Below, piece after piece: positions 1 through 37,465 of a DNA stretch of 37,487 nucleotides (position 1 is the first letter of the stretch; every line of letters begins with the position of its first letter). Source of the DNA: a virus. The position numbers were made by a program, and so were the translations under genes. The stretch spans positions 1 through 37,487 of IMG/VR virus record IMGVR_UViG_3300031952_000062, one strand, 5' to 3'. The notes below the pieces were generated by a model that was not told the origin of the DNA, ran no database searches, and saw nothing but the letters and a program-made list of their open reading frames with translations.

Positions 1-106
1 TGGATTGCTTATAGAACAGTGCAATCTGCACTATAAATAAAAATAAAAATATTTTACAAAAACAGTTGACAAATAAGACAAACTATACTATAATATATGT
101 GTAAGT
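1..106. repeat. Left copy of 106-bp terminal inverted repeat
   Basis: Positions 1-106 are the exact reverse complement of 37360-37465. The identity covers a small hairpin (AGTGCA at 18-23, TGCACT at 27-32), an AT-rich UP-like stretch, the whole promoter and the predicted transcription start, and breaks right after the GTAAGT at 101-106. The right copy is followed by 22 more bases to the window end. If the molecule is circular, the two copies form a giant inverted repeat with a 22-bp spacer and divergent promoters. If it is linear, these are inverted termini. Confidence 0.95.
42..101 (+). promoter_or_regulatory. Strong sigma70-type promoter, left end
   Basis: TTGACA at 66-71, a 17-bp spacer and TATAAT at 89-94, so transcription should start near the G at 101. 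Just upstream is AAAAATATTTTACAAAA, which fits the classical UP-element consensus for RNA polymerase alpha subunits. The transcript would begin GTAAGT, which can pair with ACTTAC at 122-127 to give a 5'-terminal hairpin before the first gene. Confidence 0.9.
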
Positions 107-140
107 GAGTGCGGGACATAAACTTACCAGGAGAAACAAA

Positions 141-1403: not shown

Positions 1404-1412
1404 TTTATTCCA

Positions 1413-1450
1413 CACCTACCCCGGAGGGTGCAGTGATACCCGGGGAATAC
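1413..1450 (+). promoter_or_regulatory. Structured leader L4
   Basis: CCCCGG at the 5' side pairs with CCGGGG at the 3' side. CACC at 1413-1416 could pair with GGTG in the loop. AAGGAG and the ATG at 1467 follow. The loop sequence GCAGTGATA is shared with the leader at 27841-27877 at the opposite end. Confidence 0.6.
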
Positions 1451-1466
1451 AAAAAGGAGAAGCAAT

Positions 1467-1757
1467 ATGAACGACACAAAATACGCATGCGCAATACGTG
1501 ATTGTAAGTGGCTACACTCGCTAAACAAGAAAACGCAATTTGAGGTAATAATAGAGTCGGCGAAGCCAACAGTGTTATTACTGTGGCTCCAAACACATGA
1601 GATTGAAGTACCAGATATCGTGTGGTTAATTCTTGAAAAAATGAAAATTGACTTGCCAGCAGACAAGTCTGATATAGAGAAAGAGTTGTTGGATTGGCTT
1701 ACTTACATGGACGAAGAACAAAATAGGCACGAATATCAGGCGACAGGAGTATTATGA
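1467..1757 (+). CDS. Hypothetical protein, 96 aa
   Basis: Unrecognised 96-residue protein with two cysteines near the amino end and a helical middle (LLLWLQTHEIEVPDIVWLILEKM). ATG 1467 has AAGGAG 8 bases upstream. Its end overlaps a degenerate copy of the GC-rich leader (1757-1785), which precedes the alanine-rich gene. Confidence 0.65.
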   Translation: MNDTKYACAIRDCKWLHSLNKKTQFEVIIESAKPTVLLLWLQTHEIEVPDIVWLILEKMKIDLPADKSDIEKELLDWLTYMDEEQNRHEYQATGVL

Positions 1758-1801
1758 TCGACTGGGGTTATTGCCGGGAAACAAAAAATGGAGAAATAAA
1801 A

Positions 1802-2383
1802 ATGAAAATAACTAAAGAATATCTTCGTAAGCAAAATGCTTGCGAAGAATCATTAAAATTTGGCACCGAGCATGACATACTCGGTATGGAAGCTGTCCCG
1901 CTCATGGAACGATTGATTGAGCTTGAGGAAGTTGACTGGGCATTGTGGCTTTTGGTTCGAGTGATGAGCCGCAAGCAATGCATTGAATTTGCTTGCCACT
2001 GTGCGCGTTCTGTACTTCATATTTTTGAAGAACGTTTTCCGGGAGACGAACGGCCACGAAACACAATTGAACAAGCGGAGAAGTTTGGAACGCTAGACTT
2101 TGATGAAAAAATATGTAAAGCCTACGCCGCCAACGACGCCGACGACGCCGCCTACTACGCCGCCAAAGCCGCCACCAACGCCGCCTACTACGCCGCCAAC
2201 GACGCCAACGCCGCCAACGACGCCGCCGCCTACGACGCTAACTCCGCCTACGCCGCCTACGCCGCCAAAGCCGCCAACGCCGCCTACGCCTACGCATCCA
2301 AATGCGACAAAAAAGTAAAACTTGCCGATCTTGTCAGGATTGGAATAGATATGATAGGCAAAGTTTCAATCACTCATAGTTAG
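1802..2383 (+). CDS. Imm5-like alanine-rich protein, left copy
   Basis: A 193-residue protein in three parts: a conserved amino-terminal domain of about 100 residues (ALWLLVRVMSRKQCIEFACH, then a region reading FEERFPGDERPRNTIE), a low-complexity run of A, N, D and Y, and a conserved tail (KCDKKVKLADLVRIGIDMI). From memory the first part resembles the Imm5-type 'putative immunity protein' family, whose members also end in alanine-rich helices. No toxin gene is visible nearby, so the role is open. ATG 1802 follows GGAG at 1789-1792; an ORF running back to 1754 would read through the leader. A second copy lies inverted at 35902-36675, near-identical at both ends but with a different repeat length. 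Confidence 0.8.
   Translation: MKITKEYLRKQNACEESLKFGTEHDILGMEAVPLMERLIELEEVDWALWLLVRVMSRKQCIEFACHCARSVLHIFEERFPGDERPRNTIEQAEKFGTLDFDEKICKAYAANDADDAAYYAAKAATNAAYYAANDANAANDAAAYDANSAYAAYAAKAANAAYAYASKCDKKVKLADLVRIGIDMIGKVSITHS
2120..2300 (+). repeat. GC-rich triplet low-complexity tract (short version)
   Basis: Built almost entirely from GCC codons alternating with AAC, GAC and TAC, so it stands out as GC-rich in an AT-rich genome. It encodes the Ala/Asn/Asp/Tyr run of the left Imm5-like protein. A same-strand shadow frame reads Pro/Thr and is not a gene. The right-end homologue has a tract about twice as long. Confidence 0.9.
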
Positions 2384-2586: not shown

Positions 2587-2982
2587 CTATCTTGAAAAAA
2601 ATAATTTTATTATTCCTGCTGATGCTCCCAATAAACCCAATGCCCCACCAATCACCCAAAAAAAACCTTTGATTTTTTCAATTATCTCGGAATTTTCTTT
2701 TGTTTTTTGAGCCACTCCGGGATTGATTCCGTCCCCCATCATTAACATTTTTAGGTCCCTCGATATCTTTGTTAATTCGGAAAGGTTGGCTTCCATTTTT
2801 GAAATCATCGATAATATAGAAGCAGGTCCAGTATCGATTATTGACGCCTTGATGGTTGGATACGTTGTGACAAGGTCGGATAGAATCCTGAATGCACCAG
2901 TCTGGTCTTGCAGTTCTATCTTCTGAGCAATATCACATGTTTGCTTACAGTCTTGTTTTTTATTTTGAGCCATTTTTGCCAT
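2587..2982 (-). CDS. Holin-like protein (XhlA-type topology)
   Basis: A 131-residue protein with a long charged/amphipathic amino part and one hydrophobic segment at the very end (FFWVIGGALGLLGASAGIIK), then a short basic tail. This topology matches XhlA-like hemolysin/holin proteins, in which a cytoplasmic helix precedes a carboxyl-terminal membrane anchor. It follows the lipoprotein gene directly, overlapping its 3' end, at the end of the late operon, as expected for lysis. ATG 2982 is preferred to the upstream TTG (2994) because a GGA lies just ahead. It could instead be another small membrane protein. Confidence 0.6.
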   Translation of the reverse strand: MAKMAQNKKQDCKQTCDIAQKIELQDQTGAFRILSDLVTTYPTIKASIIDTGPASILSMISKMEANLSELTKISRDLKMLMMGDGINPGVAQKTKENSEIIEKIKGFFWVIGGALGLLGASAGIIKLFFSR

Positions 2983-3181
2983 CCGGTATTCCAATTATGG
3001 GCCTAACGAATCCTGGAATAATCTCCGGGAATAGGACGTTAAGAAAATTCAACGCGTAATACGCGGCATCATATGCCGTTTTCAATTGAACCTCAAATTT
3101 TTCAGGGTTCTTTTGAATTGAAGCACACCCGGAAAAAAAAAGCATTAAAACCAGCACAAAAACTGTTAAATTTCGTTTCAT
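2960..3181 (-). CDS. Small lipoprotein, Rz1-like or exclusion protein
   Basis: 73 residues beginning MKRNLTVFVLVLMLFFSGC: a basic start, a hydrophobic core and a lipobox (FSGC), so it should be cleaved by signal peptidase II and lipidated at that cysteine. AAAGGAG lies 6-7 bases before ATG 3181. Lipoproteins next to holins in phages of diderm bacteria are often the outer-membrane spanin (Rz1). This one is not proline-rich, so superinfection exclusion is an alternative. It is the first gene after structured element copy 1. Confidence 0.7.
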   Translation of the reverse strand: MKRNLTVFVLVLMLFFSGCASIQKNPEKFEVQLKTAYDAAYYALNFLNVLFPEIIPGFVRPIIGIPDGKNGSK

Positions 3182-3212
3182 GTAAACTCCTTTTTTTAAA
3201 ATCGTTATAAAT

Positions 3213-3373
3213 TCAATGTCCACACACTTTATAAAACAACTTTGTTTTATCGAAGTGTAGCGGGGTTATCGTAAAAATACAAATCGATACAAGACAATCT
3301 AAGCGTTTATCAATATGTTTTGTTATTTAAAAACTGCAACGTCTAAAATTGGCTCATATCGATTTATAAACAT
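3213..3373 (-). repeat. 161-bp structured intergenic element, copy 1
   Basis: Near-identical to 33827-33987 and related to 10717-10863. It lies between the tail gene ending at 3383 and the lipoprotein gene, reading in the same direction. In minus-strand sense it has a long imperfect stem (9 bp of AAATCGATA/TATCGATTT plus 11 more positions with G-U pairs), a conserved internal loop and a second hairpin near the ribosome binding site. A C-G pair here (3237/3244) is T-A in copy 3. Confidence 0.85.
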
Positions 3374-3382
3374 TGTCTATTT

Positions 3383-5650
3383 TTAGTCAGGTGGATAAAC
3401 TTTGTCGTACATCAATTTTCCATTGACACCGAAAAAAGTATTTTGCAGGGTCTGTTGTGTACAATTTGCACCGCCAGCTCCCCAGGGGTTTCCGTGATGC
3501 AATGCGAATTCCTGAAATGAACCGGTTGTATATTCTGTTGTGGCAAGCCCAAACACCCTAAGCGCTCCAACAGTCAACCCCGCATTGTATGAGCTGCCGG
3601 AATTCTGAGTGGAAGATATAATCCTGACCCCATCCTTGTATAGAGATATTTCCGTATTATTTCCATTTTTTTTCAAATACAATATGATGTGGCTCCACAC
3701 TCCAGCAACCAATCCGCTACTTATCGCCGAAATCCCAAAGTCTTGGACCGCATTCGTTTGTTTTGCAATACTTAGGTATCCGGTCGTAGCGAGCATTCGG
3801 AGAGCATAGAAATCTCTTTGAGTGTCTTCTCTCCCAACAGAAAATATTCTTTGATTTGAAGCGATTGAAAGGGGTCTGAATAGAAATGAAAATGAAATTT
3901 CATTTCTATCCGGCATACTTCCAATTTTGTCAAACGATGCTTGCGGTACAGTTATGTATGCATCTACTGCATTTGACCTCCATGACACCAGGTTTAGAGC
4001 GGTTGCATCAGTGAACTGCTTTACGTTCGAATTCGTTATTGAATTATTTCCGAGCGGACCAAGGGAGTGGTCGCAAAAATTGACAACCTCATTTCCCTCA
4101 GACTGGATAGAAAGTTGGCAGGTATAGTCCATCAATGCATGCTTGGTCACGTCCCAAAGAATTAGAACGCACGTGCCGGAATTTACGTTCCTTCGAATTC
4201 GGAGAATGCAATATTTCCGATTCACGGTTCCGGCGGAAATATCCTTGACATCCGCCATTTCAACGATATCACCTGGAAGCAAGGTGTATGGGAAACTTGA
4301 GTCTACCAGGGAAATCGACGTTTCGATGTAAGGTATATGTTTTTCCGCAAGTATGTATTTTTGCATATTGCAAGAATGGGTTTTGATATATGCAAACCTT
4401 AGGTCTTCATGAACGTGATGCGTTTTAAATTTCGAAATTGACCAGGACTTGTCCGGGGTATTGTCCGATTCGTAAAATAAAGCTTTTCCTTGAATGTTTT
4501 GGTAGCCCCAAAATCCTTCAATATCGTTTTTGATATCCTCTTCAATCGTCCGTGAGTAATTGAATGAAACGATATCCGAAGGAAAAATTTTATGGACCGA
4601 GGTTATATTTCCAGGTTCAATTGCGATCAATTCTAATTTTCCAATTGCGTTCACTCGAACCATACAGGAAAATGAATCTTGAAACATTTTCAAGACTTCC
4701 GCAGCAGACTGATCACCTTGCTGCGAAAACGCGACGGATAGGTCTGAACCTGACTGAAACTTTCTTCTTTGCAAAACAGCCAAAAACTCCTGATTAACCG
4801 CGGATGTTTCATCAATTTCCAAATCGGAACCAACCATTTTTAACATTTTTTTTAATGCAGTAATAGGGGTTAACCCTTTCCATCCGTATGTTGGCCAGCA
4901 TTTTAATTCAGTGGGGAGAGAGTCTCCAGACGCATTGATTAGAACTCTCACAATCGACTGCCCGTTTATGTTCCTCGCTTCTTTCGTTACCGAAAAGTTA
5001 GGAACGTCAACGTCGCCCGTCTTCAATACTTTTGTTACAGTTTCGCTTCCATCCGTGGTTGGCGTGTCAAATGCGATATAAGTTTTATCGTTTCCAACCT
5101 GATTTACCTGGTACGCCGTTATGACACCTCCGGGATAATTTGCAGACACAGGGATTTTTGAAGTGTCGATAACTCCAACACCGAATGCTATATATTTACC
5201 AGCGTTCAGCCCTGCATTAGCGTATTCGCTTTCTGATATTTCATTTGAGAATGGATTTGAAAATACCTGATTTCTGTCTTGAATTTTAAGGTAAAAAATT
5301 CCATTTTCAACTCCTTTGTCCTTCACGAACCCCCTACAAATTGTGTTTGCATCGGAAAGGGTCCCGTCCGATTTTTTCTTCATGAACATAACGTCGATAT
5401 GATGAATATTCGCAAGCTCCGTTTGTATTTGCCAAAATGCCGCGTTATTGGTTTCGACAATTTTCAGCGTTATTTCGTTCGCCTCAAACTCCCCAACACT
5501 GGAAACAATCTCGAAGTTTTCCAGGATTGCACCGGTTAAAAATTGACGAACCGTACCATCGAAGTCAACTGACTCCGTGTCTCCGGTTGTCAGGTACTGA
5601 TACCCGCCGCCGGCAACAAATTTGATGTATATGAAAATTTCATTTGCCAT
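3383..5650 (-). CDS. Tail tip/hub protein with LamG-like receptor domain
   Basis: A 755-residue protein, last of the tail cluster. The first ~500 residues resemble a tail-hub protein (VDFDGTVRQFLTGAI near the start; GLTPITALKKMLKMVG around 270). Residues from about 580 (ISFSFLFRPLSIASNQRIFS, then GVWSHIILYLKKNG and EISLYKDGV) look like a laminin-G/concanavalin-type lectin fold, suitable for binding a surface glycan. The order, after tape measure and distal tail protein, fits a central tip or host-recognition role. Start ATG 5650 follows GGAGGT and abuts the stop of the upstream gene. The two-domain reading is by eye. Confidence 0.75.
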   Translation of the reverse strand: MANEIFIYIKFVAGGGYQYLTTGDTESVDFDGTVRQFLTGAILENFEIVSSVGEFEANEITLKIVETNNAAFWQIQTELANIHHIDVMFMKKKSDGTLSDANTICRGFVKDKGVENGIFYLKIQDRNQVFSNPFSNEISESEYANAGLNAGKYIAFGVGVIDTSKIPVSANYPGGVITAYQVNQVGNDKTYIAFDTPTTDGSETVTKVLKTGDVDVPNFSVTKEARNINGQSIVRVLINASGDSLPTELKCWPTYGWKGLTPITALKKMLKMVGSDLEIDETSAVNQEFLAVLQRRKFQSGSDLSVAFSQQGDQSAAEVLKMFQDSFSCMVRVNAIGKLELIAIEPGNITSVHKIFPSDIVSFNYSRTIEEDIKNDIEGFWGYQNIQGKALFYESDNTPDKSWSISKFKTHHVHEDLRFAYIKTHSCNMQKYILAEKHIPYIETSISLVDSSFPYTLLPGDIVEMADVKDISAGTVNRKYCILRIRRNVNSGTCVLILWDVTKHALMDYTCQLSIQSEGNEVVNFCDHSLGPLGNNSITNSNVKQFTDATALNLVSWRSNAVDAYITVPQASFDKIGSMPDRNEISFSFLFRPLSIASNQRIFSVGREDTQRDFYALRMLATTGYLSIAKQTNAVQDFGISAISSGLVAGVWSHIILYLKKNGNNTEISLYKDGVRIISSTQNSGSSYNAGLTVGALRVFGLATTEYTTGSFQEFALHHGNPWGAGGANCTQQTLQNTFFGVNGKLMYDKVYPPD

Positions 5651-6465: not shown

Positions 6466-9400
6466 TTATAACTCCTGCATAAATGTCTTGTATCCGCCGA
6501 CATTATTTATTGCGAGACGTTTCAAAATTTGAACAAGGGCGTAGTCGTCCGGGAATTTCACTTTATCAAATCCTTGCTTTATTGACGAAATGAATTCTCG
6601 CGCCAGGCTGGATTCCCTCGCCGTATTTGTTTCGCCTGAAACTCTTATGTTTATATCCATTGCTCTTCGGCCTGCCGGTTCAATGCCTCTTGAAATCGGA
6701 AGCGATGGAGAAATTGACGATTCCCCGTACCCAGTAGAAATATTGAGAGATTGAATTGATTCAAGATTTGATTTTAGGTCAACGACGGATTGATTTACTG
6801 ACTCAATTTGAGACTGAAAGGAAAAAAAATCGTTTTCCATGCTCCCCGCTGCCAACGTTGCAGCCTTTGCGGTTTCTTCAAGTTCAACCTTCGACGTTGC
6901 AAATAGATCATCTTGAACGACAGCATCAAAAACCATTGCGGGCGTGTTGGCTGCGGTATCCTGGAAATTGAGCATTTCCGCCGATGCTTTTTTCATTGCA
7001 TCAGGTACGCTCCCGCCCAACGTTTCGACGAGGAGCAAAACGGCATCGGTAACAAGCTTGAAGCCTTCGCCCATCGTCTGCTGTTCCGTTTTTATTTTTG
7101 CCTGGTTTTCAGAAACGAACCCCAAGGCTGTGGCCTGTTCAATGATCGCCTTCGTTCCGTCGTCAAGTATCCATCCAAAATCCGTAGAAAGAAGATTAAT
7201 TCTTTGGAGCTGGCCTTGCATCATTTGAAATATTTCGGCATCAGAGAACCCGGCTTTTTGCAATTCGGAAACCTGATTTTTCAACGTCGTTTGGTAGTCG
7301 TCGAATTGCCCTTGACTTTCAACCCGGAAAACGTTTGTAAAGTTCGTCATTGCCTGTCCCCACCCCTTAACGGCGTTGACAAGTGTTTGATTTTCGGCAA
7401 CCTTTTTTTCATATGCAATCATGTCATCGTATAGCTGAATTGAAGCGTTTCCAAAAACGGCTTGAAGGCTTTTTGCCTCTTCGAGCTTTCTCTCCAGCTC
7501 ATTCAAGTTCATCAATTTCGACATGTCGATTTCGTCCGGCTTCTTTCCGCCGAATATTTCATTTTTCAACGCTGCAATTTGAGACTCAAGTTCCGTTGTA
7601 TCGATCGACTCGAGCATTTTCTTATACCCGGAAAGTCCGGCTTGACTTGACTTTTGTATATAGTCGAAAATTTCTTGAACAAAGACCCCTTGCTTTTTCA
7701 TTTCTTCGAACATCAAGACCCAACCGGTCGTAGCCGCTCCACCCTCGAGACCAAGCTGCCTTGCTTTTTCAATCAGCGCATCAAATGCTTTTCCGAAATT
7801 TTCCGCAGTTTCGGAAGCACCCGCAACCCCCTGCGTAAATCCTGAAAAAATATTTCTAAGACGTTCAGACCATTGATTGAAGTTTTCAAAGGTAATATTT
7901 GAGGTTCGAATCATTTCACCAAATACCGCGTTCATTGCCCGGCCAGCCGAACCAACCCCACCGATTGCCTTCGCTGCCTTTTCAAGTTCTTTTGTCCAAT
8001 CTCGAGTTATTCCGGACAAACCTTTTAGGTCTCTTTCGATTGCTTTCAATTCCCCTGACTTTCCTTTCAACCATGAAAATAAAGCTCCAACAACCGAAAT
8101 CGCCCCGGAAAGAATTCCAAGGCCAGCGGATATTTTTCCCAATATTCCCATGAATCCGGTGCCCGACTCTTTCCACGCTTTCATTCCTGCAATCCCAGCA
8201 GACAGACCGCCGGTCAATCCTGAAATCATCCCGGCGGTCTTCGAGGATATTAGTCCCATTTTTTCAAGAGATGAAACCGCCGTATTGGTTGCCTGAATAA
8301 GCGCCTCAAAATTATCAGTAGTTTTCTTCGTTGTTTCTGACGTTTGTTTCATTCCTGAATTTGTGTTTTTCATCGCTGAGGCCATTGCTGAAAATATTGG
8401 ATTGAATTGTCCCATCAATCGAAGCATGTCGATTATTTTTTTATTTGCCTCGTCTATTTCGGTTGTTATTTTTTGAAATTCCGGTGGAACTTCGGAGCCG
8501 GCCGTGATAAATGTATCAGATAGAGAAGACATTTCATCCCTCATCTTTTTCATCATCACGACGTCAGAAAGGATTTCTCCCTTGAACTTTGAAAAAACAT
8601 CAATTAGAGCCGTTGTTTTTACCTGAAACGGTTTCAATTGATCTTCCGTCAAGAGCCCTAAGGATTTCCGGTATTCGTCCGTGGCCTCTCTCAAGTCCTT
8701 TTGTTCTTTTGCGGTTGCATTCATTCCCTTTATGAGCGCATCAAGCGCATCCTTTCCGCCAAAAATGGCGTAAAACGTATCATCAATTGATTCCTTGTAT
8801 TTCTTTTGGCTTTCCGTTGCCTTGATGGTTGCGTCTGAAATGTTTTGAATCGAAACTGGGACCTTTGCGCCCTGGTCCGTAAATGACTTTGTCAACAAAT
8901 CCGTTTCCTTTTTTAACGATTCGGTCGCCGGTACACTTTTGAAAATTTCTTCCCGATGCGCATTATATACTGAAACTAAACCGGCAACTTTCTGAGATAA
9001 TTCAGCAGCGGAAATTGAAGAAATTTTAAGTTTGCCTTCGTATTCGGAGATCGCAGGGTTTACTTTTTCCACAGACCCACCCAATCCATCCATCCCACCC
9101 TTCACCTTTATGGTTCCTTGTTCTATTTTTTTATTGGCTTCGTTCCACTTTGCATAGTCCGAAGCCATTTTCTCGCCATAACGGCCACCCTGAATGGCTT
9201 GCATAATTCGCATATATCGAATTCCAGTATCCTCAATTCCCTGGAAATCAATGTTCATCCACCGCAATTGAGTCGACGTCAACTTAATTGCATCTGTCAT
9301 TTTTCCGAAACGGGATACCGCCATATTGGTCGTTTTTGCATTATCACGCTCCCTTGCCTCAATTTCGTCGAATTGAATTCCTAAATCTTTCATCAACTCA

Positions 9401-10698
9401 ACGATGATCGAAACTTCTGCCGCAAGAGCAACTAATGCGACTATAGGGAGAGCGGCAGTCAGTGCAACCATTGCCGTATTCAGAGCAACCGACGCAGTTA
9501 CCGCTGCCCACATCTGAATTTGGACCGCGGTCATCCCAGCAGTCATGGACGTGAACCACGCAACCGCAGTTGTTCCCATTACGATCAGCGCCTGCGTATA
9601 TCCCGCAACCTTGACAGTTCCAAACGCAACTGCAGCAGCAATTGCAACTTTGTCAAGTCCTCCGGCATAATCAGAAATATAAGAGACGACGTTTTGAATT
9701 GGAGAAATAATTGTTGTAATCGCATTTGCAGCGAAAGAAATCGCGGACCCAAAACCTCGAAAAAATGTCACAATTGAATCCCAATTTTCCGTCACGGTTT
9801 TTGCGACCTGTCCAATTGCATCTCCAATTGATTTTCCAAGCCCCTGAAAGGCTCCCTGTATTTCTGCACTCCCCAATCCATCTGAAATTGATTTGAAAAA
9901 ACCGGAAGCCTCAAAACCTTCAAGTAATCCGGTTCCAAACGCCTCCTTAATGTCTGCAATTGCCAATGTAAGTTTTTGCTGCGCGTCAACGAATCCGGTT
10001 ATGCTTGTATTTGCGTACCGCTTTTCCAATTCTCCCAGGATTGCCTCTTGAATTTTTGCTGCATCACCGGTTTTCAACATTTCGTCGATTACTTTCTTTT
10101 GATCTTTTGAGAAAACAATTCCGGCCTCACGAAGACCCCTTAGGGCAATATCGGGATGCTCCAATGCCATCGCAAGTTTTTTTGCCATATCGGTAGCGCT
10201 CTGTTGAGTGACAACCCCATCCCCAATTGACCGATTGACCGATATAGAAGCCCGTGTCACACGATCAAGCAATTCCGGTTGCAATTTTTGTTGAATAAGC
10301 GTTCTCTGAATTGATTCGGCGACTTCATTTTGAATGTTGAAGGTTTGCTGCATTACGCCCGCATACGCGCGCAGGTCTCCTGCTGTTCTACCGTATGCCC
10401 CACCGGCCCCATCAAGTGCGTTTTGAAGCATTTGAAGACTTCGAGTGCTCTCCGTTGCCTCTCCAATTGACTCTGAGAAAAAGCGGACCCCCTGCCATGC
10501 AAGAAAAAGTGCCCCCGCGGCCTTCGCCATATCAATCAGACTTTTTGAACTCGTCTCCGTTATCTTTTGATTTTTTTGGAGTGAAGTTGTGGTTTGGTTC
10601 GTTTCCTTTTGCAGTTTATCAAACGCCGTACCGGTGGCGTTTATGTTTGTGATTGCTCCCTTGCTGTCAACTTCTATCTTTAGTTCAATATTTGGCAT
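6466..10698 (-). CDS. Tail tape measure protein
   Basis: At 1410 residues this is by far the longest gene. It shows the classic mix of long coiled-coil stretches and a central hydrophobic block (about residues 350-430, rich in A, V, I, with TVKVAGYTQALIVMGTTAVA), plus a second glycine/alanine-rich region near 860-930. The tape measure sets tail length and lies in the tube until DNA ejection. At about 0.15 nm per residue the tail would be near 200 nm. It directly follows the frameshifted chaperone genes, and its leader holds structured element copy 2. Start ATG 10698 has AAGGAA ahead of it. Confidence 0.95.
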   Translation of the reverse strand: MPNIELKIEVDSKGAITNINATGTAFDKLQKETNQTTTSLQKNQKITETSSKSLIDMAKAAGALFLAWQGVRFFSESIGEATESTRSLQMLQNALDGAGGAYGRTAGDLRAYAGVMQQTFNIQNEVAESIQRTLIQQKLQPELLDRVTRASISVNRSIGDGVVTQQSATDMAKKLAMALEHPDIALRGLREAGIVFSKDQKKVIDEMLKTGDAAKIQEAILGELEKRYANTSITGFVDAQQKLTLAIADIKEAFGTGLLEGFEASGFFKSISDGLGSAEIQGAFQGLGKSIGDAIGQVAKTVTENWDSIVTFFRGFGSAISFAANAITTIISPIQNVVSYISDYAGGLDKVAIAAAVAFGTVKVAGYTQALIVMGTTAVAWFTSMTAGMTAVQIQMWAAVTASVALNTAMVALTAALPIVALVALAAEVSIIVELMKDLGIQFDEIEARERDNAKTTNMAVSRFGKMTDAIKLTSTQLRWMNIDFQGIEDTGIRYMRIMQAIQGGRYGEKMASDYAKWNEANKKIEQGTIKVKGGMDGLGGSVEKVNPAISEYEGKLKISSISAAELSQKVAGLVSVYNAHREEIFKSVPATESLKKETDLLTKSFTDQGAKVPVSIQNISDATIKATESQKKYKESIDDTFYAIFGGKDALDALIKGMNATAKEQKDLREATDEYRKSLGLLTEDQLKPFQVKTTALIDVFSKFKGEILSDVVMMKKMRDEMSSLSDTFITAGSEVPPEFQKITTEIDEANKKIIDMLRLMGQFNPIFSAMASAMKNTNSGMKQTSETTKKTTDNFEALIQATNTAVSSLEKMGLISSKTAGMISGLTGGLSAGIAGMKAWKESGTGFMGILGKISAGLGILSGAISVVGALFSWLKGKSGELKAIERDLKGLSGITRDWTKELEKAAKAIGGVGSAGRAMNAVFGEMIRTSNITFENFNQWSERLRNIFSGFTQGVAGASETAENFGKAFDALIEKARQLGLEGGAATTGWVLMFEEMKKQGVFVQEIFDYIQKSSQAGLSGYKKMLESIDTTELESQIAALKNEIFGGKKPDEIDMSKLMNLNELERKLEEAKSLQAVFGNASIQLYDDMIAYEKKVAENQTLVNAVKGWGQAMTNFTNVFRVESQGQFDDYQTTLKNQVSELQKAGFSDAEIFQMMQGQLQRINLLSTDFGWILDDGTKAIIEQATALGFVSENQAKIKTEQQTMGEGFKLVTDAVLLLVETLGGSVPDAMKKASAEMLNFQDTAANTPAMVFDAVVQDDLFATSKVELEETAKAATLAAGSMENDFFSFQSQIESVNQSVVDLKSNLESIQSLNISTGYGESSISPSLPISRGIEPAGRRAMDINIRVSGETNTARESSLAREFISSIKQGFDKVKFPDDYALVQILKRLAINNVGGYKTFMQEL

Positions 10699-10716
10699 CC
10701 GAGTTCCTTTATAATT

Positions 10717-10863
10717 TCAATGTACACACACTTTATCAAACAACTTTATTTTATCGAAACGTCAATGGGTTATCGAAAAAATGTAAGTTGACACAAGCCA
10801 ATTTAAGCGTTTATTGATATGATTTGCTATTTAAAAACTGCAACGTCTAAAATTGGCTTTAAT
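10717..10863 (-). repeat. Structured intergenic element, copy 2 (diverged)
   Basis: Shares the core loop and flanks with copies 1 and 3 but is more diverged. Its inner stem is perfect here, AGCCAATTT (minus sense) with AAATTGGCT (plus positions 10850-10858 and 10796-10804), where copies 1 and 3 have a mismatch and a G-U pair. The outer stem and the second hairpin are weaker. It forms the leader of the tape measure gene. Confidence 0.8.
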
Positions 10864-10923
10864 TAATCCACGTAATCGTTCTATTTTTTCAAAAAAAGCA
10901 AAAGTGTTTGTGAAACTTAACTT

Positions 10924-24871: not shown

Positions 24872-24883
24872 AATTTAAAAAAA

Positions 24884-24959
24884 TGCCGTCGCCTGGATTC
24901 GAACCAGGAACATCCCGGGTATTATCCTAGGATTTCTACCAACTTTGAATTACGACGGC
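24884..24959 (-). tRNA. tRNA-like gene with irregular anticodon arm
   Basis: A 76-nt cloverleaf candidate. The acceptor stem GCCGTCG/CGACGGC is perfect, U8-A9 are in place, the T-arm CCTGG-TTCGAAT-CCAGG is perfect and the D-loop has GTTGGTA. The D stem has only three pairs. The anticodon stem CTAGG/CCGGG has one mismatch and one G-U. With a 7-base loop (ATAATAC) the anticodon would be AAT, unusual for bacterial isoleucine tRNA. CCA is not encoded. A decayed or specialised tRNA is possible. Confidence 0.75.
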
Positions 24960-24977
24960 ATACATGAAATTTCCAAA

Positions 24978-25090: not shown

Positions 25091-25119
25091 ATTATAACAT
25101 ACTTTGTATTAAATTTCAA
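25091..25119 (-). promoter_or_regulatory. Promoter for tRNA-like gene and downstream operon
   Basis: TTGAAA (rc of 25114-25119), 17-bp spacer, TATAAT (rc of 25091-25096). The transcript would start near 25084 and carry about 125 nt of leader before the tRNA-like gene. The 24960-25127 interval holds no convincing gene. Confidence 0.8.
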
Positions 25120-27773: not shown

Positions 27774-27840
27774 TTTTGTTCTCCTCAACCATATCACCAC
27801 GTAGTTTTAATCCAACCATAGTGGAATGTAAAGTTTGATT

Positions 27841-27877
27841 TGTTCCCCGGGTATCACTGCACCCCCCGGGGTAGGTG
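27841..27877 (-). promoter_or_regulatory. Structured leader L6
   Basis: In minus sense, CCCCGGG pairs with CCCGGGG around a GGTG-containing loop, with CACC upstream for a possible pseudoknot. It is the mirror-side counterpart of L1-L4, and shares the loop GCAGTGATA with L4. Confidence 0.6.
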
Positions 27878-27885
27878 GGTGGTTT

Positions 27886-28188: not shown

Positions 28189-28208
28189 GTTAATCTCCAT
28201 TTTTTTTG

Positions 28209-28245
28209 TATTCCCGGCGTATCACTTCACCCCCCGGGTAGGTGG
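28209..28245 (-). promoter_or_regulatory. Structured leader L7
   Basis: CCCGG/CCGGG stem with the loop GGGTGAAGTGATA identical to L1 at the opposite end of the genome; CACC lies upstream. It lies between the 28251 and 27886 genes. Confidence 0.6.
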
Positions 28246-28250
28246 AAATG

Positions 28251-28832: not shown

Positions 28833-28916
28833 GTTAATCTCCATTTTTTTCGTTTTTCGTTTTCGTAGGCAAGTAAGTTATCGACCACCCGGGCCGCATC
28901 ACTCACTTACATATAT

Positions 28917-28945
28917 ATTATAGTATAATTTATCCTATTTGTCAA
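28917..28945 (-). promoter_or_regulatory. Strong promoter, UP-element module copy
   Basis: TTGACA (rc of 28940-28945), 17-bp spacer and TATAAT (rc of 28917-28922), with AAAAATATTTTACAAAA upstream. It is near-identical to the terminal repeat promoter from the UP element through the start. The predicted transcript begins GTAAGT and can pair with a downstream ACTTAC. Confidence 0.9.
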
Positions 28946-32155: not shown

Positions 32156-32812
32156 TTACACAACCGTTTCCCAATCTCTTGAACTTTCTTCCGGTTCGTC
32201 AAGTATAATCGGTATCTGATCGAAATTTCTTTCCACCCAACCGGCAGCGGACAGCTTCCAGTTTTCCATTTGTTTTTTCCCCTGAATTTTCCAATCTCTT
32301 ATGAAATAATAGTTTACGAATTTTTGGCTTGACACTGTGGCGTAAGAAGTTGAACCGGTCTTTTCCTTCATGAATTGAAAAACCATTTCGACGGTTGGAA
32401 CTGTAAACTTGATATCCCGCTTTACCCTCGCAGGTTTCAAGTATTTATATTTTTCCGAACCTGAAACTTGCTGCAGAACTTTTACACGGGACATCATGGT
32501 TATGTGATCTTTTGAAATTGGAATTTTGCAGGCCTCCATTCTTTCGATGAACCGAACCGGAAAAACCGTGACAGGTGGAATTTTAGAAACAACATAATCC
32601 TTCGTTTTGTCAACAAGATTTTTTGGGTGGGTGAACAAAAACTCACCCTGCAATGCATTTTCATACCAGACCGTATTTCCGTAGTTAAAACCGGTTATTT
32701 CCCGGCAATATTTTCGGAATTCATCACAATCGATAAATCCAACCTGGCAACGAAAAACCATCAACTCGATAAATGATCTTTGAGTATAACTCAATTCGCT
32801 AAACTGTTTCAT
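32156..32812 (-). CDS. Replisome organizer / replication initiator
   Basis: 218 residues. The carboxyl region TVEMVFQFMKEKTGSTSYAT..., FVNYYFIRDWKIQGKKQMENW and LSAAGWVERNF follows the repeating end pattern of phage replisome organizers (NGWK-x-G-x-x-M-x-x-WK-x-x-x-x-W). The upstream half should contain winged-helix origin recognition, though this is not proven here. It lies directly ahead of the helicase loader. ATGA overlap with the nuclease gene sets ATG 32812. Confidence 0.8.
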   Translation of the reverse strand: MKQFSELSYTQRSFIELMVFRCQVGFIDCDEFRKYCREITGFNYGNTVWYENALQGEFLFTHPKNLVDKTKDYVVSKIPPVTVFPVRFIERMEACKIPISKDHITMMSRVKVLQQVSGSEKYKYLKPARVKRDIKFTVPTVEMVFQFMKEKTGSTSYATVSSQKFVNYYFIRDWKIQGKKQMENWKLSAAGWVERNFDQIPIILDEPEESSRDWETVV

Positions 32813-33807
32813 TCTTCACCTCCGCACTCCACCAACTCCTCATGCTTTTTTTCACGAACCAGGAAAAGAGTGTCAATCGTTCCCTTCTTTTCCCTCGAAC
32901 TACAAACGTCAAAAAATTGACATTTTCCATAATTTCCACTACAGGAATGGAAGTTCATAGGCCAATTTCCAATTGAAGCACATACTTCCAATCTCTTCAA
33001 ATTTTCGTAAAGCGACAATTCAAACTGAGTTCGAATCTCATCGCTATACGTCAACCAATGCCGGACGATATCCGATTCCTTATTCCTGATCGCTTCAATT
33101 ACTTCTGAATAATCGGAAATATTGAATCCATTTTCCTTGATTGCTTCCAAAAAAAGCGAAATAGTCGTATTCTGCCTCTTGTCAACTGAAAGCGATTTTC
33201 CGCTTTTTAACAACTTAGGTTTTTCTGGAATTTCAATCTTCTTGATAAGATTGAATGCAACACCGACGGCACCTGGAAACGCTGTCAAGTATGTGAGCGC
33301 CTGCGGAAGCATTGTCAATCCAAAAACGTAGTCACTCGAAATACTGGACACCGTCTTATGTTCGATTATCCATTTTTGCCCACCGACCACCATTAATCCA
33401 TCAATCTTTCCTGCCACTTTTGTTTCCAGCGTGTCCAGCTCGAACGGATGAACAACGTTCATTGAAAACTCTTTTTCAACTTCAATGACATTCACATCAA
33501 CTCCGAACGTTTCTGCGTATCGACGAAAACACGAGATTGACACGTTCTCATCATTAGAAAGCATTGACAGGTCAATCAATTCAACCTGTCCATCCCGGAA
33601 CGAATCCAGGATGTATTTTTCAATTTCAACTGTCCCCATTCCGTTCAAATGCTTCGATATCGCATCATGGACAATCCGTCCAATTCGCAACGGTTTCGCC
33701 TCATCCAAAGGCGTCAGCATCAATTCGTATCGATAGGAATACTTACGCGGGCAAGTCATGAAACACGAAACGCTTGAATTCGTTTCTATTCTTCTTTGAT
33801 CTTTCAT
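32809..33807 (-). CDS. PD-(D/E)XK nuclease, RecB/Cas4-like
   Basis: 332 residues. SSVSCFMTCPRKYSYRYEL at the start is the typical Cas4/AddB-like opening. KPLRIGRIVHDAISKHL follows (motif I His), and KIDGLMVVGGQKWIIEHKTVS near 140 holds motif II D and III ExK. The late cysteines (CSGNYGKCQFFDVC), with the early CPRK cysteine, suggest an iron-sulphur cluster. Together with the SSB-like and Sak4-like genes just upstream it forms a recombination set. The leader is structured element copy 3; GGAG precedes ATG 33807. Confidence 0.85.
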   Translation of the reverse strand: MKDQRRIETNSSVSCFMTCPRKYSYRYELMLTPLDEAKPLRIGRIVHDAISKHLNGMGTVEIEKYILDSFRDGQVELIDLSMLSNDENVSISCFRRYAETFGVDVNVIEVEKEFSMNVVHPFELDTLETKVAGKIDGLMVVGGQKWIIEHKTVSSISSDYVFGLTMLPQALTYLTAFPGAVGVAFNLIKKIEIPEKPKLLKSGKSLSVDKRQNTTISLFLEAIKENGFNISDYSEVIEAIRNKESDIVRHWLTYSDEIRTQFELSLYENLKRLEVCASIGNWPMNFHSCSGNYGKCQFFDVCSSREKKGTIDTLFLVREKKHEELVECGGEE

Positions 33808-33826
33808 TTTTTAGCTCCATATAGTT

Positions 33827-33987
33827 TCAATGTCCACACACTTTATAAAATAACTTTATTTTATCGCAGTGTGGACGGGTTATCGTGAAAATACAAATCG
33901 ATACAAGACAATCTAAGCGTTTATCAATATGTTTTGTTATTTAAAAACTGCAACGTCTAAAATTGGCTCATATCGATTTATAAACAT
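33827..33987 (-). repeat. 161-bp structured intergenic element, copy 3
   Basis: Best-preserved copy. In minus-sense RNA, arms at 33960-33979 and 33895-33914 form 20 positions with one mismatch and three G-U pairs. A second hairpin (33832-33876) joins GTCCACAC/GTGTGGAC to ATAAAATAA/TTATTTTAT and ends about 20 bases before the nuclease start codon. Most of the rest is identical to copy 1. Confidence 0.9.
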
Positions 33988-33998
33988 GCTCCATTTTT

Positions 33999-34460
33999 TT
34001 AAAAAGGGTCAGGGGCGTCGTATTCCATTCGGTCTAAATCTTGCTCCGCCTGTTTGTCTCTATCAAACGATGAGTCTTGTTCATACCGGATAATTTTCGG
34101 ATAACCTGCAACCGTTTCTATTGTCTTTTCACCGGTTTCATTGTCGAACGTTTCAACCTTTTTTGACTCAATTGCAAGATGAACGATTAACCTGCACCCC
34201 CGCAACAAATTTGTGTCGGTTGCATTTTCTTTTTTAAATTGACATGCAGAAAAAACCTTGAACAAAAAAACTAACCCTTTATCGGACGTCGGATAAAATT
34301 GCCCGTGGGTTTCCCCTTTTTCATTTTTGAATACAATTTTTACCTGACTTTTCCCGTTTTGGGACACACAATCTGCTGCTGACATAATTTTCACTCTGTG
34401 TTCACCAACTCCCATGTATTCCGGGACATCTTTCCAACTTTCTGCGCTAAATGTTGCCAT
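33999..34460 (-). CDS. DUF669-like ssDNA-binding protein
   Basis: 153 residues from ATG 34460. MATFSAESWKDVPEYMGVGE, then HRVKIMSAADCVSQNGKSQVK, IVFKNEKG and LLRGCRLIVHLAIESKK follow the pattern of phage DUF669/SSB-like proteins, an OB-fold partner of Sak4 recombinases. AAAGGAG precedes the start, which overlaps the ATPase gene by 14 bases. Confidence 0.75.
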   Translation of the reverse strand: MATFSAESWKDVPEYMGVGEHRVKIMSAADCVSQNGKSQVKIVFKNEKGETHGQFYPTSDKGLVFLFKVFSACQFKKENATDTNLLRGCRLIVHLAIESKKVETFDNETGEKTIETVAGYPKIIRYEQDSSFDRDKQAEQDLDRMEYDAPDPF

Positions 34461-35187
34461 TTTTTTTCTCCTTTTTTTCAAAAATAATTCGGAAAATTTC
34501 CGATAAATCCGGGTCCATTGCCGGTTTTAGTTTTCCGCTGCGGTCCTTTGCGTCATAATCAATTGAACCCGCAGTCAATAGTTTTCGTGTTACATGGTCA
34601 TCCTGAGTGGGCCTAACGTGAACCATCCGAAAATAAAAATCAGCGGTTGCAAGTAGCGCATTAGGTACCATTTTTCCAGGGATTGCAGGGTAATACTTAA
34701 CCCGGTCCGTCAACTCATCCTTTTCCCTGTCTTCAAGACAGGTAAAAATTACATGGTAGGTCAAATTCCTGAAATGGGCAAGGAAATTTTTCACCATAGT
34801 TCCATACGTATTCCAATCCTGTATACGCATTGTTGCCTGAGTGTTCAGGTTTGCAACGGACGAAGGGTCCGCCTTCGATATGATCGCATGGTGGTTCATT
34901 TCTATTATTTTGGTAAATGAATCAACAAAAATATATTCATATTTCCCTAAGCTTTCAGGTTTAGAAAGTTCTTTGCATGCATCAAATAAATCTTGCCATG
35001 ATCGAATAACAAAGACATCGTAATTTTTTTCATGAAGACCAATCAACCCATTTTCAGTCGAAAGAATTAACGTTTTTTCTTCCGGTAACGTGGTAACGAG
35101 CCTTGTTTTTCCTACGCCGGATGGACCATATATTACAAACATGGCACGGTGAATATCGTTTTTTGTGTTAGTTTTTTGTAATGCCAT
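34447..35187 (-). CDS. Sak4-like RecA-family ATPase
   Basis: 246 residues. Walker A YGPSGVGKTRLVTTL at about 20 and Walker B YEYIFVDSFTKI at about 85, with a late polar region typical of Sak4/AAA_24 phage single-strand annealing recombinases. The gene directly precedes the DUF669-like gene, a known pairing. Start ATG 35187 has AAGGAG upstream. Confidence 0.85.
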   Translation of the reverse strand: MALQKTNTKNDIHRAMFVIYGPSGVGKTRLVTTLPEEKTLILSTENGLIGLHEKNYDVFVIRSWQDLFDACKELSKPESLGKYEYIFVDSFTKIIEMNHHAIISKADPSSVANLNTQATMRIQDWNTYGTMVKNFLAHFRNLTYHVIFTCLEDREKDELTDRVKYYPAIPGKMVPNALLATADFYFRMVHVRPTQDDHVTRKLLTAGSIDYDAKDRSGKLKPAMDPDLSEIFRIIFEKKEKKNGNI

Positions 35188-35853: not shown

Positions 35854-35882
35854 ATTATAACATGTTTTAATAATTAAGTCAA
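35854..35882 (-). promoter_or_regulatory. Promoter of replication block
   Basis: TTGACT (rc of 35877-35882), 17-bp spacer, TATAAT (rc of 35854-35859), with AAAAATATTT upstream, a partial UP-element match. It should drive the HTH, recombination and replication genes. Confidence 0.8.
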
Positions 35883-35901: not shown

Positions 35902-36675
35902 TTATTTGATTATCATATCTATTCCAATCCTGACAAGATCGGCAAGTTTTACTTTTTTGTCGCATTTGGATGCGTTAGTGGCGGCGGCGGCGTTGGCGGC
36001 GTCGTTGGCGGCGGCGTTGGCGGCGTCGTTGGCGGCGGCGTTGGCGGCGTCGTTGGCGGCGTAGGCGGCGGCGTTGGCGGCGTCGTTGGCGGCGTAGTAG
36101 GCGGCGGCGTTGGCGGCGTCGTTGGCGGCGTAGGCGGCGGCGTTGGCGGCGTCGTTGGCGGCGTAGTAGGCGGCGTCGTAGGCGGCGTCGTAGGCGGAGG
36201 CGTCGTAGGCGTTGGCGGCGTAGGCGGCGTCGTAGGCGGAGGCGTCGTAGGCGTTGGCGGCGTAGGCGGCGGCGTTGGCGGCGTCGTTGGCTGCGTCTTT
36301 GGCGGCGTCGTAGGCGTTGGCGGCGTAGTAGGCGTTGGCGGCGTTGTCGTTGGCTGCTTTACATTTTCCTTCATCGAAGTCTAGCGTTCCAAACTTCTCC
36401 GCTTCTTCAATTGTGTTTCGTGGCCGTTCGTCTCCCGGAAAACGTTCTTCAAAAATATGAAGTACAGAACGCGCACAGTGACAAGCAAATTGAATGCATT
36501 GCTTGCGGCTCATCGTTCGAACGATGAGCCACAACGCCCAATCAATTCTATCCAGCTCAAGCAATCGTTCCATAAGCGGTACAGCTTCCATACCGAGTAG
36601 GTCATGCTCGGTGCCAAATTTTAATGATTCTTCACAAGCATTTTGCTTACGAAGATATTCTTTAGTTATTTTCAT
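35902..36675 (-). CDS. Imm5-like alanine-rich protein, right copy
   Basis: 257 residues from ATG 36675, with AAGGAG upstream. The amino domain differs from the left copy at a few positions (LELDRIDWALWLIVRTMSRK against LEEVDWALWLLVRVMSRK), while the final KCDKKVKLADLVRIGIDMI is identical at DNA level. The central run of Ala, Asn, Asp and Tyr is about 130 residues long, against about 65 in the left copy. Repeat change is thus confined to the centre. The homology to Imm5-type proteins is from memory; function unknown. Confidence 0.8.
   Translation of the reverse strand: MKITKEYLRKQNACEESLKFGTEHDLLGMEAVPLMERLLELDRIDWALWLIVRTMSRKQCIQFACHCARSVLHIFEERFPGDERPRNTIEEAEKFGTLDFDEGKCKAANDNAANAYYAANAYDAAKDAANDAANAAAYAANAYDASAYDAAYAANAYDASAYDAAYDAAYYAANDAANAAAYAANDAANAAAYYAANDAANAAAYAANDAANAAANDAANAAANDAANAAAATNASKCDKKVKLADLVRIGIDMIIK
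35975..36360 (-). repeat. GC-rich triplet low-complexity tract (long version)
   Basis: Same composition as 2120-2300 but about twice as long, with internal tandem blocks encoding AANDAANAA and AYAANDAANAAA. The alternative frame reads Pro/Thr over its whole length and should not be annotated. Confidence 0.9.
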
Positions 36676-37288: not shown

Positions 37289-37359
37289 GTTAATCTCCAT
37301 TTTTTAGTTTTTAGTTTTCGTAGGTAAGCAAGCTTTCGACCACCCGGGCCACATCACTT

Positions 37360-37465
37360 ACTTACACATATATTATAGTATAGTTTGTCTTATTTGTCAA
37401 CTGTTTTTGTAAAATATTTTTATTTTTATTTATAGTGCAGATTGCACTGTTCTATAAGCAATCCA
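37360..37465. repeat. Right copy of 106-bp terminal inverted repeat
   Basis: Exact reverse complement of positions 1-106, carrying the same promoter but firing leftward into the right-end gene block. The last 22 bases of the window (37466-37487) lie outside the repeat and have no counterpart at the left end. Confidence 0.95.
37372..37424 (-). promoter_or_regulatory. Strong promoter, right end
   Basis: Same promoter as at 42-101 within the inverted repeat: TTGACA (rc of 37395-37400), 17-bp spacer and TATAAT (rc of 37372-37377). The transcript would begin GTAAGTAAG, which can pair with CTTGCTTAC downstream. Confidence 0.9.

Follow-up and report, generated by a model that had tools for sequence, protein, structure and literature searches.

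Why would a phage carry one long, hairpin-forming sequence at three gene junctions, each time just ahead of the start codon of an unrelated gene? The question arises in an unclassified bacterial virus whose complete IMG/VR record, 37,487 bases at 41% G+C, is the window analysed here. The genome encodes terminase, portal-position, capsid, tail and recombination genes; no near relative was found in the phage collection, and the terminase matched a single phage record, at 26% identity. Gene calls are mechanical open reading frames whose starts were picked manually.

The three-copy repeat ahead of unrelated genes is real. An ungapped search with 3193-3384 as the reference returned 33807-33998 at 91% identity and 10697-10888 at 76%, and a covariance model covering a 157-nt core of the element (~160-190 nt in all) scored the three copies at 171-192 bits. 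When the model was run with filters off over both strands of the window, no fourth copy appeared; the next-best matches were the antisense of the copies themselves at ~20 bits, followed by background at 13 bits or less. Chance is excluded, because nothing but the copies' own antisense exceeds this background. Both searches place the copies on the minus strand ahead of start codons, as the initial annotation had proposed, and its description of a structured, repeated leader before unrelated genes is supported. It had further described copies 1 and 3 as nearly identical, which agrees with their 91% identity, with ~100 bp that are unchanged between them and with a 95-nt run free of changes inside the modelled unit (P = 0.0095 if 7 changes fall at random). 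The evidence base is three sequences, all from one genome.

In each case the similarity takes up nearly the entire gap, running from the stop codon of the preceding gene almost as far as the ribosome-binding site; copies 1 and 3 start a few nucleotides past that stop codon and extend up to the ribosome-binding site. The genes that follow are a nuclease, a tape measure protein and a small lipoprotein (Table 1); the lipoprotein matched no Pfam or PHROG family, and its role in lysis is putative.

Table 1. Positions of the element, its parts and the neighbouring genes and promoters in the window
Feature	Positions	Strand	Evidence or remark
Copy 1, filling the gap from gene 3383-5650 to the small lipoprotein gene	3182-3382	-	191.8 bits; fold z -5.75
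Copy 2, filling most of the gap ahead of the tape measure gene	10699-10890	-	171.2 bits; fold z -1.6
Copy 3, filling the gap from gene 33999-34481 to the nuclease gene	33808-33998	-	188.5 bits; fold z -5.2
Hairpin 1, copy 1	3278-3368	-	Identical to that of copy 3
Hairpin 1, copy 2	10782-10872	-	-16.9 kcal/mol; perfect inner stem; outer stem part compensated (2 double changes), part broken (5 pairs)
Hairpin 1, copy 3	33892-33982	-	-26.9 kcal/mol; 27 modelled pairs, ~34-nt conserved loop
Hairpin 2, copy 1	3214-3271	-	Stability equal to copy 3 despite 7 differences (P = 0.02)
Hairpin 2 region, copy 2	10718-10775	-	-5.1 kcal/mol (P = 0.98); largely collapsed
Hairpin 2, copy 3	33828-33885	-	-18.1 kcal/mol; ends just 5' of the ribosome-binding site
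31-nt block, copy 1	3324-3354	-	Identical in all three copies
31-nt block, copy 2	10828-10858	-	Identical in all three copies
31-nt block, copy 3	33938-33968	-	Identical in all three copies
Small lipoprotein gene, after copy 1	2960-3181	-	Translation MKRNLTVFVLVLMLFFSGCA...; ATG at 3181
Tape measure protein gene (1410 aa), after copy 2	6466-10698	-	Weak TMP_2 match (2e-4, under Pfam cut-off); length; position after tail genes
PD-(D/E)XK nuclease / phage exonuclease gene, after copy 3	32809-33807	-	Pfam PF12705, 5e-11; phrog_1218, 2e-26
Gene 5' of copy 1	3383-5650	-	
Gene 5' of copy 3	33999-34481	-	160-aa product
Consensus sigma-70 promoter, 5' of the operon with copy 3	35854-35882	-	11/12, extended -10
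Consensus sigma-70 promoter, 5' of the tRNA/packaging/head/tail run with copies 2 and 1	25091-25119	-	11/12, extended -10
G+C-rich leader element	404-450, 760-806, 1141-1188, 1408-1455	+	
G+C-rich leader element	27836-27882, 28203-28250	-	

Copies 1 and 3 each form two hairpins (about -27 and -18 kcal/mol), and no other gap in the genome reaches coding-strand fold z-scores as negative as theirs (-5.9 and -4.2). Copy 2 retains chiefly the inner part of hairpin 1; as a whole it is not significantly structured, and its second hairpin is poorly kept (-5.1 versus -18 kcal/mol). The perfect inner stem previously reported for this copy, AGCCAATTT/AAATTGGCT, is present. In hairpin 1 of copy 2, relative to the other copies, two pairs have undergone compensatory change on both sides (A-U to G-C and C-G to U-A), six carry a consistent change on one side, one mismatch is repaired and five pairs are broken. 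Hairpin 2 differs between copies 1 and 3 by one double change, the replacement of C-G (3237/3244) by T-A (33851/33858) that had been noticed at the outset and that the alignment contains, and its energy is maintained across 7 changes at P = 0.02 in the sense orientation and 0.10 in the antisense.

Is it the pairing itself that has been conserved, and if so in RNA or in DNA? Three pair changes on both sides were counted in the element against at most one in controls slid out of register, and 92.7% of cells were paired against at most 50%. In a permutation test, copy 2 kept more pairs than a random dealing of its substitutions would leave (P = 0.026), but by the same approach pairing was conserved just as well under the antisense rule (P = 0.008). 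The initial annotation had stated that G-U pairs occur only in the mRNA sense, which holds for copies 1 and 3 (four G-U, no C-A) but not for hairpin 1 of copy 2 (three of each); pooled, G-U to C-A is 10:3 (P = 0.09). These data support a conserved dyad in the element, and since the antisense rule fits equally, action as RNA and action as DNA are indistinguishable by this measure.

The best-conserved block of the element is one of sequence rather than structure. The longest run unchanged in all three copies is 31 nt, AGCCAATTTTAGACGTTGCAGTTTTTAAATA, which covers the 5' arm and half the loop of hairpin 1; with 30 changes among 157 positions, a run of this length has P = 0.019. This block points to recognition by sequence as well as by shape, and the element can be divided into two parts, a sequence core that is conserved and stems that drift. 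Folding of the kind seen in integron attC sites was considered and rejected, because the loop rather than the arms is most conserved.

All three copies fill gaps inside apparent same-strand operons, 5' of which lie consensus sigma-70 promoters (Table 1). The early units of the phage have near-perfect sigma-70 promoters with AT-rich, UP-like stretches ahead of them; near-consensus sigma-70 promoters are absent from the three elements, though other gaps carry them. One weak pair, TTKATA-17-extended -10, stands at a common position in all three copies, at the extreme 3' end, where its use would make the transcripts of copies 2 and 3 nearly leaderless and leave their ribosome-binding sites outside the transcript. 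No sigma-70 -35/-10 pair common to the three copies places a start site 5' of the ribosome-binding site, and a by-eye search for sigma-28 and sigma-54 layouts found none present in all copies. No intrinsic terminator (a G+C-rich hairpin with a T run) was called within the copies and no strong terminator was found directly 5' of them; an A+T-rich hairpin with a T run 5' of copy 2 might be a weak one. Since copies 1 and 3 begin so soon after a stop codon within same-strand operons, co-transcription is expected to yield read-through RNA containing the element. Hairpin 2 bears some likeness to an AT-rich stretch (repeat family D5) that precedes the early promoters and, judged by consensus, resembles an UP element; as no -10 follows in the element, this likeness was put down to AT-rich coincidence.

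The ends of the record, 1-111 and 37355-37465, form a 111-nt inverted duplication (99% identical), each with a perfect sigma-70 promoter and an UP-like stretch. Transcripts from early promoters at 88-130 (+), 28870-28925 (-) and 37320-37380 (-) have a predicted 5' hairpin, GUAAGUGAG...CUUACUUGC / GUAAGUAAG...CUUGCUUAC. Just past the promoter at 25119 lies a tRNA-Ile gene with the unusual anticodon AAT (24883-24960, minus strand; ARAGORN). A promoter (TTGACA-16-TATACT, 2584-2557) and a strong terminator (2458-2433) on the minus strand of region 2425-2584 delimit a possible small RNA gene of 120-130 nt at ~2425-2552. A second, G+C-rich leader element, CACCTACCCSGG.GGGTG.AGTGATACSCSGGGAATACAAA, occurs in six copies just 5' of the ribosome-binding sites of small genes; it could form an H-type pseudoknot through CACC/GGTG and CCCGGCG/CGCCGGG or CCCCGG/CCGGGG, and it had no match in viral contigs.

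Does the element occur elsewhere? DNA searches of the phage, IMG/VR viral contig and GTDB genome collections found no homologue, and none was found through the neighbouring proteins or through a six-member Sak4 alignment (best 35% identity). The covariance model, applied to 81 loci, gave one match (E = 1.6), which we rejected as not real. Consistent with the earlier statement that no known riboswitch or ribozyme has such a layout, the copies had no Rfam match at gathering score or at E ≤ 5. The same order of a DUF669-like gene and the nuclease gene recurs in a single distant viral contig among those found (nuclease 31% identical; neighbour 26% over 70 residues), where the two genes abut without a spacer, so that the element appears to be a module that was placed separately.

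The only Rfam match in the window is unrelated to the three copies and lies outside them, a single CRISPR-repeat-like sequence at 2363-2392 (+; CRISPR-DR2, 38 bits against a cut-off of 37). Compared with the paralogue 35902-36675 (-), gene 1754-2383 (+) has this sequence in place of its 3' end; both genes encode Imm5/DUF6931-like proteins with long tandem A-Y-A-A-N-D repeats. The sequence could be a lone repeat unit like those of RNA anti-CRISPRs.

Given that the three copies are homologous, conserve their pairing, share an invariant block and lie mid-operon, with no sigma-70 promoter in common that is compatible with the ribosome-binding sites, we tentatively favour a cis-acting intercistronic module, probably acting in polycistronic mRNA on processing, stability or initiation, over a phage-regulated promoter with paired operators. 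Such a module would have been copied into three gene junctions within polycistronic phage transcripts. The upstream sigma-70 promoters would give rise to read-through RNA in which hairpin 1 lies just 5' of the ribosome-binding site, with hairpin 2 between the two in copies 1 and 3. The long hairpin 1 (~27 pairs in copies 1 and 3) might then be cut by a double-strand RNase, for example host RNase III, or alternatively a factor might bind its invariant arm and loop; cut or bound, it would break the link between the downstream cistron and its neighbours and determine the stability or initiation of that cistron. We infer that the element is transcribed through, works as RNA and is cleaved, and that expression is thereby affected. 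It is rather doubtful that the element represents a new class of phage intercistronic RNA element, in which a long hairpin with an invariant 31-nt block and a second hairpin at the ribosome-binding site would let one phage or host factor jointly control recombination, tail-length and lysis-region genes.

The promoter reading, the main rival, is somewhat less likely. On that account the arms would be paired operator or activator sites on either side of a promoter that departs from consensus and lies in the conserved loop (for example, TTGCAG-16-CATATT/C), and three operons would be switched on together later in infection. Other gaps of this gene-dense phage do hold promoters, the invariant block takes in the AT-rich loop along with one arm, the antisense rule fits the conserved dyad equally well, and GATAA motifs recur 18-19 bp apart in the 3' half of the element. 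However, the sole co-positioned sigma-70-like pair would strip copies 2 and 3 of their ribosome-binding sites, the other promoters of the phage are near consensus, and neither a sigma factor nor an activator turned up among the genes examined. A quite improbable reading is that of a functionless repeat, mobile or passively duplicated as a miniature element or by gene conversion. The 95-nt run unchanged between copies 1 and 3 would fit recent duplication or conversion, and the distant contig lacks the element; against this, the copies are all placed and oriented alike with respect to a start codon, and the block is invariant even in the diverged copy. The suggestion of a mobile element made in the initial annotation is not supported, as no consistent inverted ends or target duplications were found and the dyad lies inside the unit rather than at its ends.

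More improbable still is a put- or nut-like RNA that would modify RNA polymerase as it passes, enabling it to transcribe through later terminators. The two-hairpin layout, the several copies in this one genome and the position upstream of the longest operons would suit it, but the copies lie late in operons rather than directly after promoters, the operons yielded few strong terminators further downstream, and there is no sequence or structure match to an antitermination family in Rfam. We give the least credence to a translational operator bound by a protein or small RNA, riboswitch-like leaders included, that would coordinate the three genes. In its favour are the invariant loop and the location beside the ribosome-binding site, and the candidate small RNA gene, flanked by its promoter and terminator, might supply a partner; yet the predicted pairing of this RNA with the copies was no better than with shuffles (P = 0.13, 0.07 and 0.40), no Rfam family matched, and the ribosome-binding site lies outside the conserved hairpins.

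Control elements repeated at the gene junctions of phages are already known but seldom explained, and this element is a compact test case for how phages uncouple adjacent genes in long operons. It is now a single-genome orphan, and the finding would gain weight if homologues and a trans-acting factor emerged.

Among known systems, we favour the RNase III sites of phage T7 (R0.3 to R18.5) as the closest in function. These are similar hairpins at junctions of polycistronic mRNA, ahead of the ribosome-binding sites of unrelated genes, and the hairpins of the element likewise sit at same-strand gene junctions just 5' of ribosome-binding sites. An intercistronic hairpin of about two helical turns, as in T7, is found here with 27 modelled pairs in copies 1 and 3 and ~16 well-paired positions in copy 2. 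The T7 sites are short, single, irregular hairpins, whereas the element is ~160 nt long with two hairpins and an invariant long loop, and its cleavage is putative. The put sites of HK022 share its two-hairpin layout and occur in more than one phage transcript, but they are ~65 nt long and near early promoters, unlike the 160-nt element deep in operons. At the DNA level, the alternative is represented by mycobacteriophage stoperators and other repeated operators, which are similarly repeated in intergenic positions but are 13-17 bp long and present in dozens of copies (PMC3203893, PMC4351075), in contrast to a long composite unit in three copies. The closest described phage arrangement, though much shorter, is the SAS/ESAS of Cluster K mycobacteriophages, repeats with imperfect inverted repeats just 5' of the starts of some unrelated genes, whose function is unknown and for which a role in translation has been suggested (PMC3203893). 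SAS is a 13-bp motif in 11-19 copies, and the arrangement has 17-bp arms and 4-13-bp spacers (PMC3203893); the motif, GGGATAGGAGCCC, had no match here with up to two mismatches. Compared with SAS/ESAS, the element has 27-pair arms, a ~34-nt loop and three copies, and it precedes structural genes as well.
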